Shown piece after piece: positions 5,632 through 12,779 of a stretch of DNA of 64,000 nt. This DNA comes from Ruegeria intermedia (GTDB taxonomy: Bacteria; Pseudomonadota; Alphaproteobacteria; Rhodobacterales; Rhodobacteraceae): contig NZ_FQVK01000006.1 in assembly GCF_900129345.1 (NCBI RefSeq), positions 62,001-126,000 of the forward strand, given 5' to 3'. The notes beneath the pieces were generated by a model, which was not told the origin of the DNA, made no database searches, and worked only from the letters and a program-made list of their open reading frames with translations. The position numbers and the translations under genes were made by a program. Each line of letters begins with the position of its first letter. Position 1 is the stretch's first letter.

Positions 5632-6087
5632 TCAGTCTTCCAGAATACGGCGCAGCCGCTCCTGTTCTTCCTCGCTCAGAGCGTCGGTTTCGGCGGTTTC
5701 GGCGCTGCGGGCGCGGCCGCGCAGAAAACTCCAGCCCATGATCGCCGCGATCAGCAACATGATCGGTCCGGCCAGCCACAGCAGCAGGTTCGCCCCCGTG
5801 GTCTTGGGCCTGAGAAGAACATATTCGCCATAGCGGTCCACGATGAAGGCAACCGCCTCTTCGTCCGTATCGCCGGCCACCAACCGCTCCCGAACCAGCA
5901 GGCGCAGGTCGCGCGCCAGTTCGGCATTGCTTTCGTCGATGCTTTCGTTGCGGCAGACCAGACACCGCAGCCCGGCGCTGATCTCACGCGCACGCTGTTC
6001 CAGAACCGGGTCGTCCAGCACTTCGTCCGGCTGTACCGCCATCAACGGAGACGCCAGCAACATCAAAACAAGGATCAGACGTTTCAT
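5632..6087 (-). CDS. ccmH: Cytochrome c maturation protein CcmH
   Basis: Membrane-anchored thiol-disulfide protein that helps present apocytochrome c for heme attachment. The 151 residues carry a signal sequence (MKRLILVLMLLASPLMA), the redox motif RCLVCRNESI with Cys42 and Cys45, and a membrane segment near residues 100-120 before an acidic tail. The start at 6087 overlaps the ccmF stop by ATGA, indicating coupled translation. This is the short CcmH/CycL form without the CcmI-like tail; ccmI is not in the window. Confidence 0.95.
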   Translation of the reverse strand: MKRLILVLMLLASPLMAVQPDEVLDDPVLEQRAREISAGLRCLVCRNESIDESNAELARDLRLLVRERLVAGDTDEEAVAFIVDRYGEYVLLRPKTTGANLLLWLAGPIMLLIAAIMGWSFLRGRARSAETAETDALSEEEQERLRRILED

Positions 6088-8048
6088 TCTGCTGCGACTC
6101 CTGCGGGCGTGTTCTTGCGCGCCCCCGCCGCCACGCGGAAGCGCCGGTCGGACAGGCTGAGCAACCCGCCCAAGGCCATCAGGATACACCCCCCCCAGAT
6201 CCAGTTCGCCAGAGGCTTGATATAGGTCCTCATGACCCAGCCGCCGTCATCCTGCTGGTCGCCGATCACAACATAAACGTCACGCAGAAAACGATAGTCG
6301 ATCGCCGCCTCGGTGGTGGGCATCGCTGCCACCGGGTAGGTACGCTTTTCGGGATTCAGGGTCGCGACGGTTCGGCCATCTTTTTCCACCAGGACATCCG
6401 CCATGGTCGAAAAATAGTTCGGCCCCTCGACCTCGCGCACCCCATGCAGGGTAAAGTCGAACCCCGCAACCTCGAATGTTTCGCCCACGCGGGCGACGCG
6501 GATGTCTTCGACCTCCCAGGCGGTCAGGCCGGCGATGGCGAACATCGTGACGCCCAGCCCGGTATGGGCCACCGCCTTGCCCCAATCAGCCCCCGGCAGA
6601 CGCATCAGGCGCGCCACGCTGCCCTTGCGGCCCGTTCGGCTCCACAGATCGACGATGGCGCCAAAGGTGATCCAGGCGCCCAGGAACAGCCCCACGGGCC
6701 CCAGCGCGCTGCGCCCCGTCTGCATCGCCCAGACCAGGATCGCCAGCGACACGGCCAAAACGAAGGCATAGCGCAACTGCCACGCAACGCGGCCCAGCTT
6801 GCCCCGCTTCCACGGCAGCATTGCGCCCAGGGGCAGCACGATCCCCAAAACCACCATGAACGGCGTGAACGCGGCGTTGAAGAACGGCGCGCCCACCGAC
6901 AATTTCCGGTCGAACATCATCTCGGCCAGCATCGGCCACATGGTGCCGACGAACACGACAAAGCTGCTGACGGCCAGCAGGATGTTGTTCAGCACCAGCG
7001 CGCTTTCGCGGCTGACCATGCCGAACACCCCCTTGGCCTCCATCGCCTGCGCCCGCGCGGCGAACAGGGTCAGCGCGCCGCCGATGAAGTCCACCAGGAT
7101 GAACAGGATGAACACCCCGCGCTCGGGATCGTTGGCGAAGGCATGGACCGAGGTCAGAAGGCCCGAGCGCACGATGAAGGTTCCGATCAACGAGAAGCCG
7201 AAGGCGATGATGGCCAGCAGGATGGTCCAGCTTTTCAGCGCCTCGCGCTTTTCGACCACGATGGCCGAATGCAGCAGCGCGGCGGCCAGCAGCCAGGGCA
7301 TGAACGAGGCATTCTCGACCGGGTCCCAGAACCAGAAACCGCCCCAGCCCAGCTCGTAATAGGCCCACCAGGACCCCAGCGCGATGCCGATGGTCAGAAA
7401 GATCCACGCCGCCAGCGTCCACGGCCGCACCCAGCGGCCCCATGCGGCGTCGATGCGCCCCTCGATCAGGGCCGCGACCGCAAAGCTGAACGCCATGCTC
7501 AGCCCCACATAGCCCAGGTACAGAAATGGCGGGTGAAACGCCAACCCGGGATCCTGCAGCAGAGGGTTCAGGTCGCGCCCGTCAAACGGGGCCACCGGCA
7601 GCCGGTCGAACGGGTTCGAGGTGAACAGGATGAAGGCATAGAACGCCACGCCGATGGCCCCCTGCACCGCCAGCACCCGCGCCTTCAGCGTGGGCGGCAG
7701 GCCGGCGCCGAAAAAGGCCGCCATGGCGCCAAAGATCGCGACGATCAGCACCCACAACAGCATCGAGCCCTCGTGATTGCCCCAGGTGCCGCTGAGTTTG
7801 TACAGCATCGGTTTGGCCGAATGGCTGTTCTCGACCACGATCCGCAGCGAAAAGTCCGACGTCGCGAAGGCCCAGACCAGCGCTCCGAAGGCGAAGCCGG
7901 TCAGCAGAAACTGCGACACGGCGGCCGGTTCGGCGAAAAACATCCACGAAGGCCAGCGTTTTGCCGCGCCGATCAACGGCACGACGCTTTGCGCGATGGC
8001 CACCAGAAAGGCCAGGATAAGGGCGAAATGTCCAAGCTCGGTAATCAT
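6084..8048 (-). CDS. ccmF: Heme lyase subunit CcmF
   Basis: Polytopic heme lyase of the System I cytochrome c pathway, 654 residues from ATG at 8048. It has many membrane segments and the tryptophan-rich heme-handling motif GWGGFWFWDPVENASFMPW. It works with CcmE, which delivers heme, and CcmH. Its stop overlaps the ccmH start. Upstream on the same strand is the GTA-type holin gene, 74 bases away, which separates ccmF from ccmE. Confidence 0.96.
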   Translation of the reverse strand: MITELGHFALILAFLVAIAQSVVPLIGAAKRWPSWMFFAEPAAVSQFLLTGFAFGALVWAFATSDFSLRIVVENSHSAKPMLYKLSGTWGNHEGSMLLWVLIVAIFGAMAAFFGAGLPPTLKARVLAVQGAIGVAFYAFILFTSNPFDRLPVAPFDGRDLNPLLQDPGLAFHPPFLYLGYVGLSMAFSFAVAALIEGRIDAAWGRWVRPWTLAAWIFLTIGIALGSWWAYYELGWGGFWFWDPVENASFMPWLLAAALLHSAIVVEKREALKSWTILLAIIAFGFSLIGTFIVRSGLLTSVHAFANDPERGVFILFILVDFIGGALTLFAARAQAMEAKGVFGMVSRESALVLNNILLAVSSFVVFVGTMWPMLAEMMFDRKLSVGAPFFNAAFTPFMVVLGIVLPLGAMLPWKRGKLGRVAWQLRYAFVLAVSLAILVWAMQTGRSALGPVGLFLGAWITFGAIVDLWSRTGRKGSVARLMRLPGADWGKAVAHTGLGVTMFAIAGLTAWEVEDIRVARVGETFEVAGFDFTLHGVREVEGPNYFSTMADVLVEKDGRTVATLNPEKRTYPVAAMPTTEAAIDYRFLRDVYVVIGDQQDDGGWVMRTYIKPLANWIWGGCILMALGGLLSLSDRRFRVAAGARKNTPAGVAAE

Positions 8049-8122
8049 GGGCCCGGTATACCCTCGCCCCGCGCCAAGCGCCAATCACTTTCGCCGCCCT
8101 TGCGCGCACATAGTGTCGCGCC

Positions 8123-8698
8123 TCAGGCCCGCAGGCGCCGCCAGTCCTCCAGCGCCGGGTTGGGATCCGGGGCGGTCAGTTGGGCCGTCAGTTCCGCATC
8201 CGTCCCCGGGTCGGCCGCGCCGGGGCTGTCCGCCCGCATCTGGCGCAGCGTCTGAAGGTTGGCCATCACCTGCGGCGCGCGCATCATCGTGACCGAGATA
8301 TCGCGTTGCAGATCCTGCACCTTGGCCTGATGCCGCGCCCCGAAATAGAAGGACACGATCACGCCCAACAGCCACCACAGCGGTTCGGGCACCAGCGCGA
8401 TGCCCTGCATCCGCGCCGCAAACCACAGCGGATCGACCATCGCCGCAACGAACAGCCCCAGCGTGCCCAGGGCCAGCGCCGGACGCGGAAGCCGGTTCAG
8501 CCCGTCCATGAACCGATCGAATCCGCCTTTGCGCGGCACCGCGAATTCGGCGCCGAACTGGCTCATGGCCTGCCCGCGCATCTCGACGTCGCGCACGGCG
8601 CCAGCCTCGGCATTCTCGCGGAAAACCTCGGCTGTTTCGCGCACCACGTTGCGTCCGCCCCCGAACAGCAGATCGAAAATTCCCGCAATCAACCCCAT
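8123..8698 (-). CDS. GTA-type holin family protein
   Basis: A 191-residue protein with two clear hydrophobic stretches (about residues 72-92 and 104-120) and an N-terminal amphipathic GLIAGIFDLLFGGGRNVV. This matches the holin family described as three-helix holins for gene transfer agent release (PF11351). In Rhodobacter capsulatus such a holin acts with an endolysin to lyse cells and free RcGTA particles. It starts 10 bases inside the upstream endolysin gene, so the two are translationally coupled. The tail is rich in Pro and Asp and probably cytoplasmic. Function is inferred from family and pairing. Confidence 0.75.
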   Translation of the reverse strand: MGLIAGIFDLLFGGGRNVVRETAEVFRENAEAGAVRDVEMRGQAMSQFGAEFAVPRKGGFDRFMDGLNRLPRPALALGTLGLFVAAMVDPLWFAARMQGIALVPEPLWWLLGVIVSFYFGARHQAKVQDLQRDISVTMMRAPQVMANLQTLRQMRADSPGAADPGTDAELTAQLTAPDPNPALEDWRRLRA

Positions 8699-9300
8699 GC
8701 TGCGACCCTTTCGTGAAACTCCGCCTCACTCAGATGGTAGGACGGAGACAGAAACGCCTCGGCCCGACGGATCCATCCGCCCTTGCCGCCAGTCCGGCTG
8801 CGCACATATTTGCGCGAGGCCGGTCGCCGGTCGGCCAAACGGAAATAATAGTTCCGCCGCGCCACCCCATAAGCATCGCGCAGCGCCATCGGATCGGGCA
8901 TGGCGGCCTGGGCGCAAGCCGCAGCAGTCTGCGGACCCATCACCCCGTCAACGATCACCGCAAAACCCATCTGCACCAGCAGGCGCTGCAGGATGCGCAC
9001 GGCCTGAGACCCTGCGTTGACATACATGTCGAACAGCGACGGCTGCAGCGCCTCGGGGGCAAGCCCAAGCCGGGGTTTGCGGAAATAATGCGCGATGAAT
9101 ATCTCGACCGCCTGTTCCCGGCTCAGCGCCATCACGTCGCGCCGGTCAACCACGCCATCATCCGTCAGGTCGACCCCGAGGCGGCGCATCGTGTGGATGG
9201 TGACGCCGTATTTCGTCGCCCCGCCCGGGTCATCCGGGTCATCGACGAAGCCACCTTCGCGGGCCACGATCTCCCATGCGATCTGCCGAACCGACTGCAT
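8689..9300 (-). CDS. GTA-type endolysin, glycoside hydrolase family 108
   Basis: Peptidoglycan hydrolase of 203 residues. The N-terminal motif REGGFVDDPDDPGGATKYGV is the GH108 (DUF847) active-site signature, with the catalytic Glu near residue 15. A C-terminal peptidoglycan-binding segment contains GVMGPQTAAACAQ. No signal peptide is seen, so release would need the adjacent holin. The pair resembles the RcGTA lysis genes of R. capsulatus. The 130 bases upstream (9301-9430) separate it from ccmE and may hold its own promoter. Confidence 0.85.
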   Translation of the reverse strand: MQSVRQIAWEIVAREGGFVDDPDDPGGATKYGVTIHTMRRLGVDLTDDGVVDRRDVMALSREQAVEIFIAHYFRKPRLGLAPEALQPSLFDMYVNAGSQAVRILQRLLVQMGFAVIVDGVMGPQTAAACAQAAMPDPMALRDAYGVARRNYYFRLADRRPASRKYVRSRTGGKGGWIRRAEAFLSPSYHLSEAEFHERVAAWG

Positions 9301-9430
9301 GCTGCACCTCTGTGTTCTCGTGCAGCCAAAGCTCGGCCAAAAGATTTAAGGCCTTGAAACGACAGCGGGCGCTGCCCGGCCCATCCGCGCAACGCCCGCC
9401 CAAATCAACCACCCTGCGGCAGAGCCAGGA

Positions 9431-9877
9431 TCAGCTCTCGCCGGCCTCCTTGTAGACGCCCTGCTCTTTCAGAGCGTCCATGACCTCTTTGGGCATGTAG
9501 GTCTCGTCGTGTTTTGCCAGGATCTCGGTGGCCTGGAACACGCCGTCGACATAGCTGCCGGTGCCGACCATGCCCTGGCCCTCGGAGAACAGGTCAGGCA
9601 ACACGCCGGTGAACGACACCGGAACGCTTTCACCGCCATCGGTCACGACAAAGCGCACCGTCTCGCCCTGCCCGCGCACGATCGAGCCTTCTTCGACCAG
9701 TCCGCCGATGCGGAACACCTCGTTCGGCGCCGGCGGTTCGGCGATCACCTGGCTGGGCGAGCGGAAATAGTTGATCCCGTCCCGCATCGCATAGCCGATC
9801 AGCCCCGTCGCCAGAGCCAAGGCCACGAAAGCCAGCAATATGACCTGAATGCGGCGGCGTTTCTTCAGCGTTTTCAT
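9431..9877 (-). CDS. ccmE: Heme chaperone CcmE
   Basis: Periplasmic heme chaperone that binds heme covalently and hands it to CcmF. The 148 residues have a basic start, one membrane anchor (about residues 11-30), an OB-fold and the heme-binding motif HDETY, with His123 and Tyr127 in the HxxxY spacing. The start lies 7 bases after the argC stop, so it is probably cotranscribed with argC. ccmF follows only after the endolysin-holin pair. Confidence 0.96.
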   Translation of the reverse strand: MKTLKKRRRIQVILLAFVALALATGLIGYAMRDGINYFRSPSQVIAEPPAPNEVFRIGGLVEEGSIVRGQGETVRFVVTDGGESVPVSFTGVLPDLFSEGQGMVGTGSYVDGVFQATEILAKHDETYMPKEVMDALKEQGVYKEAGES

Positions 9878-9884
9878 GTCAGCC

Positions 9885-10913
9885 TCATGGGAACAGAGGG
9901 GCCATCGTCAGCCCCGTCGTTTCAGGTTCACCTAACATCAGGTTTGCGTTCTGCAAGGCCTGCCCGCTGCTACCTTTCGTCAGGTTGTCCAGCGCGGCGA
10001 TCACGATGGCACGGCGTTCGATCCGGTCGCCGACCACCCCGATATGGCAGAAATTCGACCCCCGCACATGATGGGTCGAGGGCGTCTCGCCAAAAGGCAG
10101 CATGTGGATGAAGGGCTCGTCCGCGTAAGTCGCGCACAGCGTTTCATACACGCTCTGCGGGTCGCCCTTGACATACGAGGTCGCCAGAATGCCCCGGTTC
10201 GCGGGGATCAGATGCGGCGTGAACTGGATGTGAACCGCGCGACCCGCCAGTTTCGAGAACTCCTGATCGAACTCGCCCAGATGCCGGTGGGTGCCGCCGA
10301 CGGCATAGGCGTTGGTGCCTTCGCTCAGCTCGGCGTGCAGCAGATTCTCTTTCAGCGCCCGTCCTGCCCCCGAAACGGCGCATTTCAGATCAAGAATGAT
10401 GTCGTCCAGGTCGATCACCCCGGCCGAGATCAGCGGCCGTAGCACATATTGCCCCGTCGCCGCGTTGCACCCGGTGCCCGCCACCAGCCGGGCGGCGCGG
10501 ATCTCGTCGCGGTAGAACTCCGTCAGGCCATAGACGGCCTCGGCCTGCCGGGCCAAAGCGACATGCGGGTTGCCATACCATTTCTCGTATTCCGCCGGAT
10601 CGCTCAGCCGGAAATCCGCTGACAAATCAACGATTTTCAGGTCGGAGGGCAATTCGCGGATCACTTCCTGGCTGGTCTTGTGCGGCAGCGCGCAAAAGCA
10701 CAGGTCGATCTGGTCAAAGTCTATTTCCGAGATCTTGCACAGACGCGGCAAATCCAGATGGCGCAGATGCGGAAATACCGCGGCCATGGTCTGGCCGGCC
10801 TTGCGCTCGGCCGCCAGGGCGGTAATTTCCATGTTCCGGTGCCCGGCGATCAGCCGCACCAGTTCGGCACCGGTATAACCCGAAGCGCCCAGGATTGCGA
10901 TTTTGTGGGTCAT
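9885..10913 (-). CDS. argC: N-acetyl-gamma-glutamyl-phosphate reductase ArgC
   Basis: NADPH-dependent reductase of arginine synthesis, acting on N-acetylglutamyl phosphate. The 342 residues start at ATG 10913 with the NADP-binding motif [16 protein letters not shown]; the frame extends to 10958 without family likeness. The catalytic cysteine is in AGTGCNAATG and the His in the [12 protein letters not shown] segment. Length fits the family's longer type. It is followed closely by ccmE; the link between arginine synthesis and cytochrome maturation is positional only. Confidence 0.96.
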
Positions 10914-11006
10914 GTCAGACCTCGTTTCTTGATGTGTCACGACTGGCAACCATCTCATGAACGGTTCCCGGATAAATCCGCGCGCCGGCCCGGTCCTTGA
11001 CCGAAG

Positions 11007-11816
11007 TCAGGCGGCCTGAAAGGTGATTTGTCGTCGCAGAAACTGCGTTGCCCGGTCACTGACCTTCTTGGAATCGCCCGTGGTCAGGAACCCGGCCTCA
11101 CCGGTGCCCAGCATGTCGGGGTGCCGCTGGAGATAATCCGCAAGGCTTTCGGCCACCAGGTCGCCCTGGCTGAACACCTGCACATCCGGTCCCAACGCCG
11201 CCTGAAAGGCTTCGGCCATCAGCGGATAGTGCGTGCAGCCCAAAATCGCAGCCTGCGGATGGGGCATCTTGCGCTTCAGCGCGTCCACATGGCTGCGCAC
11301 AAGGGCCTCGGCCAGGATCATGTCGCCATCCTCGATGGCATCGACCACGCCACCGCAGGCCTGCGCCTCGACATCGACGCCGATGGCGCGGAACGCCAGT
11401 TCACGCTGGAACGCGCGGCTGGCCACGGTCGCCGGTGTGGCAAACAGGGCCACATGCTTGACCGCCACTTCGCGCGGAGGGCTGTTGTCGCCCCACCGGC
11501 GCTCGGTCAGTGCTTCGATCAGCGGGACGAACACCCCCAGAACGCGCTTGCCCTGGGGCACGCCCTCTTCCTGCATCCGCCGCAGCGCCGCGGCGCTGGC
11601 CGTGTTGCAGGCCAGAATCACCAGATCACAGCCGCGCGACCACAGGTCCTGTACCGCGTTTCGGGTCAGGTTGTAGATATCCTCGGCGTCACGCACGCCA
11701 TAAGGCGCGTGCGCGCTGTCCGCGTAATACAGGAAATCCACATCCGGCAGACGTGTCTGCGCGGCGTTCAGGACGGTCAGCCCGCCCAATCCGGAATCAA
11801 AGATGCCTACTGCCAT
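11007..11816 (-). CDS. murI: Glutamate racemase MurI
   Basis: Makes D-glutamate for peptidoglycan. The 269 residues begin [15 protein letters not shown]. The two catalytic cysteines are in [10 protein letters not shown] and [12 protein letters not shown], and the substrate segment [11 protein letters not shown] is present. It starts 8 bases after the stop of the acyltransferase gene and is probably in one transcript with it. argC follows after 93 bases. Confidence 0.95.
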
Positions 11817-11824
11817 TTGCCCCT

Positions 11825-12703
11825 TCAGGCGCGATGCCGTTCCTCGAATTCATAGCCATAGTCATACGACTTCAGCGGCTTCGGAGACAGCTCATACGTG
11901 GCTTTGCGCAAGAAATCCATCATCTTGCGCGTATCGCCGGCCAATGGGTCCAGAACGTCGCGGCCGATGGGCTGCCCCACGACCACATCAACCGGGGTAT
12001 CGACGCGCTTTTTGAACTCTTTGATCAGCAGCCCCATGCGCAGCGTCACATGCAGATGGCTGGCGATCTGGAACAGGCGCGAGGTGTGCCCATCAAAGAA
12101 CAAAGGCACCACGGTGGCGTTTGACTTGGCCACCATCCGCGCGGTGAAACCGCGCCAGCCCGGGTCCATCGGGTGCGTGAACGGCCGGGCCGCCGTGCTG
12201 ACCGTACCGCCGGGAAAAATCCCGATTGCGCCACCCTGCCCCAGATAATCCAGGGCGGTTTTTCGGGTCTGAAGGTTCAGCCGCATCGCCTCTTTGGTGT
12301 GATCGAAGGAGATCGGCAAGATGATGCGGTTCAGATCCTCGGCCTTGTGGAACACATGATTGGCCAGAATCCGGAAATCTCCGCGGGTCTGGGACAGCAC
12401 ATGCCCCATCATCAACCCATCCAGAATCCCGTAGGGGTGGTTGGCGATCAGGATCAGCGGGCCGTCCCTGGGGATGTTCGACAGCGCCCCGCCCACCACG
12501 TTCAGGCTCAGACCGTAACGTTCGACCATGACGGACCAGAAATCGCGGCCATTGGCGACCTCGCGCTCGTAGCCTTCGGCACGCCGGATCAGGCGCAGCC
12601 GGCCGGTCGTGTTCTCGATCAGCTTGATGACCATGCGCCCAGCCCGCGTTTCGGCGGAATGGGCGTAGGAAATGTCCCGAGCGATTTGGCGGCGTGATTT
12701 CAT
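11825..12703 (-). CDS. Lysophospholipid acyltransferase family protein
   Basis: A 292-residue acyltransferase of the PlsC superfamily. The start at ATG 12703 follows GGAGA at good spacing; a GTG codon lies directly before it. The catalytic block reads NHPYGILDG, a His-X5-Asp form rather than the classical His-X4-Asp, as in the hemolysin-like branch of the superfamily. FPGGTVSTA fits the second acyltransferase motif. It probably transfers an acyl chain to a lysophospholipid or ornithine-lipid precursor; the substrate cannot be read from sequence. It lies directly upstream of murI. Confidence 0.78.
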
Positions 12704-12779
12704 CACGGGTCTCCGACGTGGCCGTCACGGGACGGCGCGGACCGGAACTCTATCGCGCCTCCGTGACACCGATATGACG

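Follow-up and report, generated by a model that had tools for sequence, protein, structure and literature searches.

A probable gene transfer agent lysis cassette behind ccmE in Ruegeria intermedia, its promoter motifs and its position across Rhodobacterales

An endolysin-holin pair and the gene transfer agent genes of the same genome

The DNA analysed here (the window, 64,000 nt of the R. intermedia genome) carries on its minus strand an endolysin gene (8689-9300; 203 aa), encoding a GH108 N-acetylmuramidase with a PG_binding_3 domain, and directly downstream a holin gene (8123-8698; 191 aa) of the PF11351 GTA_holin_3TM family, their reading frames overlapping by 10 nt (8689-8698, minus strand). 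Upstream on the same strand lie argC (9885-10958) and ccmE (9431-9877), and downstream ccmF (6084-8048) and ccmH (5632-6111). A preliminary description of this DNA had placed a GH108 endolysin and a PF11351 holin, with a 10-nt overlap, between ccmE and ccmF, and the ORFs, coordinates and family scores agree with it. Using profile searches, the endolysin scored 83.5 bits with PF05838 (cut-off 21.2), 81.8 bits with PF09374 (cut-off 24.6) and 348 bits with the NCBIfam equivalog NF040573, 'holin-associated N-acetylmuramidase' (cut-off 240), and its relatives in the PDB include 2nr7_A (E 4.5e-13) and 6v40_A. Likewise, the holin scored 100.6 bits with PF11351, 'Holin of 3TMs, for gene-transfer release' (cut-off 24.8), while only two hydrophobic segments (70-86 and 99-115) rose above a simple hydropathy cut, so that its three membrane spans depend on the family name. 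The same 10-nt overlap was seen in 102 of 117 endolysin-holin pairs, the window's included, with a 4-nt overlap in 11, and is likely to couple translation of the two genes.

The window lies on contig 6 of a 3.86 Mb genome in 86 contigs, and an RcGTA-type cluster was found on contig 4, where TerL, portal, protease, capsid, connectors, tail tube, short tape measure, hub, NlpC and megatron follow one another in the gene order of RcGTA. The tape protein matched NF058675 (RcGTA_tape) with 376.5 bits (cut-off 220) and the megatron matched NF048004 (GTA_megatron) with 1540.5 bits (cut-off 800). In addition, a GafA-like gene is present on contig 6 at 153597-154694, ~28 kb past the end of the window, adjoining a gene that we take from its sequence to be guaA. 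Its product scored 206.9 bits at the C-terminus with PF20057, which we infer to mark GafA, and its HTH-like N-terminus scored below cut-off. PF08299 (DnaA C-terminal) was also tried as a GafA probe and discarded, its single match being taken as DnaA itself. Upstream of the GafA-like gene is a CtrA-like site, TTAAC-N6-GTAAC, of the kind reported before gafA in R. capsulatus and in a 14-species alignment (Fogg 2019, PMC6363796). The preliminary description had proposed a genome search for the structural cluster and GafA; the former was found, and for the latter a candidate, the GafA-like gene. Its refuting condition, a genome with no GTA structural genes and lysis genes with no profile homology, does not hold, as GTA structural genes are present and both lysis families score above cut-off. 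Its claim of a GTA-type lysis pair unlinked to the main cluster is supported, the cluster being on contig 4 and the pair on contig 6. Given its families, and the RcGTA-type cluster and GafA-like gene in the same genome, we class the pair as an RcGTA-type lysis cassette, composed of a GH108/PG_binding_3 endolysin and a PF11351 holin directly downstream and overlapping it.

The pair is of the same kind, matched by family alone, as rcc00555 (endolysin) and rcc00556 (holin) of R. capsulatus, for which a part in particle release is reported (PMC3423380, PMC6363796), and like them it is unlinked to the structural cluster and has a putative CtrA half-site in its promoter, such putative half-sites being reported for the R. 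capsulatus lysis promoter (PMC9638019). It also resembles Dshi_1756/1757 of Dinoroseobacter shibae, an endolysin/holin system named in GTA release (PMC6473078). Disruption of the R. capsulatus endolysin is reported to lower gene transfer and to leave particles accumulating inside, a result that the same source describes as no direct proof, by itself, of lytic activity (PMC3423380). We consider it very probable that the R. intermedia pair belongs to the RcGTA-type gene transfer agent of this genome and serves as its lysis cassette, under predicted control of CtrA and GafA and in a unit apart from those of ccmE and ccmF. The lysis genes themselves are of a known kind, and the new detail is their conserved address and a shared pattern of promoter motifs.

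Position of the pair across Rhodobacterales

Among the 80 best-scoring related loci, a set skewed to near relatives (Ruegeria, Sulfitobacter, Tateyamaria, Roseovarius and others), the pair lies between ccmE and ccmF in 73, and the usual order is argC-ccmE-endolysin-holin-ccmF-ccmH; three of the remaining seven end at contig edges (L022, L059 and L063) and four are true exceptions (L045, L049, L051 and L066). We also surveyed 121 Rhodobacterales genomes drawn evenly from the order, of which 116 matched PF11351, 121 CcmF and 120 CcmE. The pair in the 116 holin genomes is flanked by both ccmE and ccmF in 79, by ccmE only in 24, by ccmF only in nine and by neither in four, with ccmE directly upstream in 103, and the 24 ccmE-only against nine ccmF-only genomes indicate that it is tied more tightly to ccmE than to ccmF. 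The view of the pair as inserted into the ccm gene run, with which the preliminary description had begun, does not hold as a local oddity, since the same place is occupied across the order (103/116 behind ccmE). The comparison of the ccmE-ccmF interval that it had suggested, run here on the 121 genomes, confirmed that the pair is usually there (79/116 with both flanks) and spoke against a recent insertion, and the position at ccmE appears to be ancestral in Rhodobacterales. No statement of a ccm location for the lysis pair was found in the portions of the literature that were searched, and the survey provides a testable rule, that the GTA lysis pair of Rhodobacterales usually stands behind ccmE.

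Two exceptions look like decay in place, with the remains of the pair still between ccmE and ccmF: in G085 the endolysin persists and the holin is gone, and in G042 the endolysin is diverged and the holin truncated. G081 has ccmE with no pair behind it, and G110 has neither lysis gene in the stretch read. Outside Rhodobacterales, PF11351 was matched in 46 of 189 alphaproteobacterial genomes, and in 26 such loci examined over ~1.5 kb on each side, CcmE/CcmF was matched in none and an endolysin in three. A second CcmF_C-type gene is present in the R. intermedia genome (contig 21, 49422-50408), while most of the 121 genomes show one match only. Separately, ccmE is listed among 14 gene families whose codon-usage trend is reported to follow GTA genes (PMC9765227); that it also adjoins a lysis cassette is possibly a coincidence.

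The distribution also bears on whether the pair could be a stray leftover of some prophage that has no connection with the GTA of this genome. This would suit the finding of PF11351 outside Rhodobacterales and the three further megatron-bearing prophage-like loci in the R. intermedia genome, yet the pair occupies the same place in most of the order, 112 of the 116 holin genomes have a single PF11351 match, and a promoter motif is common to the pair and the GTA cluster (see below). Furthermore, a comparison with 50,697 phage records returned nothing for the holin and a single weak match (30%) for the endolysin, leaving the pair with no close relative there, and the G+C of the pair does not differ from that of its surroundings. 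A profile scan of the eight ORFs at 5632-12706, the pair included, found no flanking phage genes, the neighbours being argC, ccmE, ccmF, ccmH, a racemase and an acyltransferase. We regard a stray remnant as scarcely credible, and the phage-record and G+C results would fit a long-domesticated gene pair. As a side observation, the prophage-like loci, which carry TIGR02217 and megatron homologues, are on contigs 19, 27 and 40 (L088, L086 and L087), and their megatron parts are 71-95% alike to each other versus 43-51% to that of the GTA cluster.

Promoter motifs and transcription units

We compared the regions upstream of the endolysin in 118 loci, comprising the window, the 115 other holin genomes, G042 and G085. 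TTAA was present at -75 to -20 of the endolysin in 111 of the 118 (nine in a control interval; 14.3 expected from shuffles), TTAAC in 92 (seven; 4.6) and TTAACC in 67 (none; 1.2). Alignment on TTAA, possible for 110 of the 118 loci, showed a preference for A at +16 (0.68) and for T at +20 (0.83); we take these two bases to be positions -11 and -7, respectively, of a putative -10 element. An unguided search returned a second motif, CCGNACGSTG, beginning exactly 23 nt before TTAA in 64 of the 110, with a log-likelihood of 202 (best of 12 starts) versus 36-47 in four shuffles (best of five starts). On the minus strand of the window, the TTAA of a CtrA half-site-like element lies at 9346-9349, 49 nt upstream of the endolysin ATG, and reads TTAAATC (9349-9343), off the TTAACC consensus; this degenerate half-site is a difference from the rcc00555/rcc00556 system. 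The second motif is GCGCCCGCTG (9363-9372, minus strand; 7.8 bits), a weaker copy with one mismatch, and a -10-like GAGCTT with the conserved A and T is at 9329-9334 on the same strand, from which transcription would start near 9322. In Ruegeria KLH11, TTAACCAT is described as a CtrA half-site and TTAA alone is said to be sufficient for some CtrA binding (PMC3692519). With the conserved A placed at -11, the distance from the end of TTAAC to the predicted start is 22-23 nt, similar to that in the CtrA-activated fla2 promoters of R. sphaeroides, where the CtrA element ends 23-24 nt before the start and the -11 A is invariant (PMC6180460). However, the fla2 promoters have a full CtrA site, whereas the cassette has a half-site and a second motif, and its start is a predicted one. 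Overall, the lysis cassette promoter looks like one of the CtrA type.

In R. capsulatus, endolysin expression is reported to need CtrA, and GafA is reported to bind the promoters of the structural genes, of gafA and of the lysis genes (PMC6363796). Of 38 regions upstream of TerL, deleted and fused loci included, 31 had the anchor, and 14 of these carry CCGNACGSTG at one and the same offset, against a mean over offsets of 0.28; this offset was the best of 110, the next among those listed having four, while 17 of the 31 regions lack the motif at the cut-off and a single genus supplies five of the 14 positives. The motif also scores 10.8 bits in the R. intermedia gafA promoter. Because R. capsulatus GafA is reported on these three kinds of promoter, CCGNACGSTG, GCGCCCGCTG of the window included, is a candidate GafA operator, supplied by the two-part promoter motif that the lysis cassette has in common with the structural cluster. 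Many GTA loci also have a conserved leader around CATGCTAGAAGAAGTGGGC upstream of TerL (for example L085:5950-6000), ~30 nt behind CCGNACGSTG where that motif is present. As a regulon finder, the composite pattern CGNACGST-N14-TTAAC was rejected, as it matched 93 places genome-wide, in 59 of the 121 genomes, which is fewer than the 120 of the reversed control. With 37 of the 93, in 35 genomes, lying within 1.6 kb of the holin, the composite is instead a mark of the lysis promoter. In 22 loci with ccmE-endolysin gaps of 41-45 nt, the stop codon of ccmE shares bases with TTAA and the second motif falls within the ccmE gene, and a promoter embedded in the end of ccmE is a possible reason for the tight tie to ccmE in these loci.

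Between ccmE and the cassette, the window contains a terminator-like hairpin on the minus strand (9364-9400) with a 12-bp stem, a 13-nt loop and a weak T tract, the 3' arm of which overlaps the second promoter motif. Hairpins scoring at least 20 are present in 14 of 29 loci with ccmE-endolysin gaps of 100-400 nt, the window included, compared with 3% of shuffles, and 12 of the 14 have at least four T behind them; under the same demand there are none in 75 loci with gaps below 100 nt, which indicates that many genomes tolerate an adjoining upstream ccmE without a visible terminator. Just upstream of ccmF is a promoter-like TTGG-N20-TATA on the minus strand (8057-8084, coordinates computed from the -36 offset), and TTGG-N15-20-TATA ending just before the ccmF ATG occurs in 40 of 90 loci, again including the window, where shuffles expect 0.2. 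From the cassette's own promoter motifs, the hairpin and this promoter-like sequence, we read three putative transcription units, argC-ccmE, endolysin-holin and ccmF-ccmH, with the proviso that ccmE transcripts may enter the cassette.

The preliminary description had suggested instead that the cassette could be reached by transcription from argC-ccmE, or that lysis is tied to respiratory state. Leakage or drive from argC-ccmE, which would link lysis to cytochrome assembly or respiration, is consistent with ccmE lying directly upstream on the same strand in 103/116 genomes, with the 75 short-gap loci that have no terminator-like hairpin, and with a reported influence of redox regulators on the CtrA regulon of D. 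shibae and of R. capsulatus (PMC7232146). However, the cassette has conserved promoter motifs of its own and promoter-like sequence follows it before ccmF, in the window a hairpin separates the two, ccmE and cassette, and the pair is kept where the link to ccmF (24 genomes) or to ccmE (nine) has been lost, all of which makes such a drive highly unlikely. For the respiratory tie, we found nothing beyond the neighbourhood, which alone is insufficient to demonstrate coupling, and the promoter found appears to be of the CtrA type.

Under our preferred reading, of a GTA lysis cassette controlled by CtrA and GafA, phosphorylated CtrA and GafA would act jointly, late in GTA production, at the promoter in the ccmE-endolysin gap, and the endolysin and holin would be translated as a coupled pair. 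The holin would open the inner membrane, the muramidase would cut the peptidoglycan, and the cell would burst and free the particles, with ccmE and ccmF being neighbours in what would be separate transcription units. Binding of CtrA and GafA at the R. intermedia promoter is predicted here from the motifs, with the TTAAATC half-site and the mismatch in the window's second motif counting against it, and lysis by the R. intermedia pair from its resemblance to known systems.

Loss and fusion of the structural cluster

The RcGTA tape gene was matched in 104 of the 121 genomes, in 103 of them above cut-off, leaving 17 that are tape-less. The holin is kept in 16 of these 17, with the endolysin open (189-203 aa) and carrying the REGG motif in 16/16, and the linkage between the lysis pair and the GTA is consequently not strict. 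Four genomes have the tape gene and no PF11351 match (G013, G042, G081 and G085), and PF20057 is present in all 121. When tape-less genomes were compared in four pairs, the lysis genes gave dN/dS values of 0.04-0.14, with dS saturated in two of eight values. These data raise the alternative of a lysis programme that runs even where no GTA particles are made, for example to free nutrients or DNA, and in which the pair would serve and so outlive the GTA cluster. Its favour lies in the kept and open genes of the tape-less genomes, the universal PF20057 and the low dN/dS, but G042 keeps the tape gene with a decayed pair, G085 has lost the holin, and the cluster losses seem to be dispersed over the tips of the trees, so that low dN/dS, both in the lysis genes and in the fusion parts described below, may only reflect the time before loss. 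For this reason we rejected dN/dS as proof of GTA-independent selection, and we regard a GTA-free role as unlikely.

The megatron was matched in 16 of the 17 tape-less genomes (not in G010), in 11 of them as a C-terminal half from about position 640, and these 16 loci were examined for fusion. In ten genomes from eight genera, the reading frame runs from TerL codon 184 straight into megatron codon 665/666 and the intervening cluster is gone (G002, G007, G009, G027, G074, G078, G079, G082, G110 and G111, at loci L277, L280, L282, L283, L285-L288, L291 and L292). An eleventh, G102 (L290), has a break near the same TerL codon and decayed afterwards. The fusion ORF is intact in nine of the 11, at 826-872 aa, and stops at 418 in G002 and at 199 in G102. 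Other, different deletions of the cluster are present in G091 (L278), G001 (L279), G005 (L281), G020 (L284) and G095 (L289). The same fusion in 10 of 121 genomes, with the decayed eleventh, amounts to a natural experiment on GTA loss. Pseudogenization and loss of GTAs, and 'cheaters', are discussed in PMC10883770, and in a limited literature search the TerL-megatron fusion was not found described in the parts consulted of PMC9836097, PMC10883770 and PMC11409702.

Directly behind the junction, the codon agrees with the megatron of congeners that have an intact cluster in g1 (L), g3 (Y), g8 (F) and g33 (I), agrees with one of three congeners in g25 and differs from the only one compared in g4. 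In trees built from the TerL part (38 rows) and from the megatron part (37 rows), the fusion is dispersed, requiring 10 changes, of which at least eight are forced by well-supported branches. Fused G079 groups with intact G069, a pairing that the TerL tree supports well. G009, also fused, groups with the intact G029, with good support in the megatron tree and no resolution in the TerL tree. This scatter points either to a recurrent breakpoint or to an old allele exchanged by recombination up to the junction, and the few letters shared at the joint seem insufficient to account for recurrence.

A broader reading would make the lysis pair and a GafA-type regulator a host programme that predates particle production and can be separated from it, with the cluster repeatedly removed by the one in-frame TerL(1-184)-megatron(665-end) fusion, its ~830-aa product maintained and the lysis pair staying behind. 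The maintained fusion might then be, for example, a non-producer ('cheater') allele that fits the 4-kb particles, which are too small for the intact 14-kb cluster. We put this forward as a doubtful proposal. The fused genomes all keep the lysis genes except G110, and lysis genes kept beside the fusion bear on the question of GTA cheaters.
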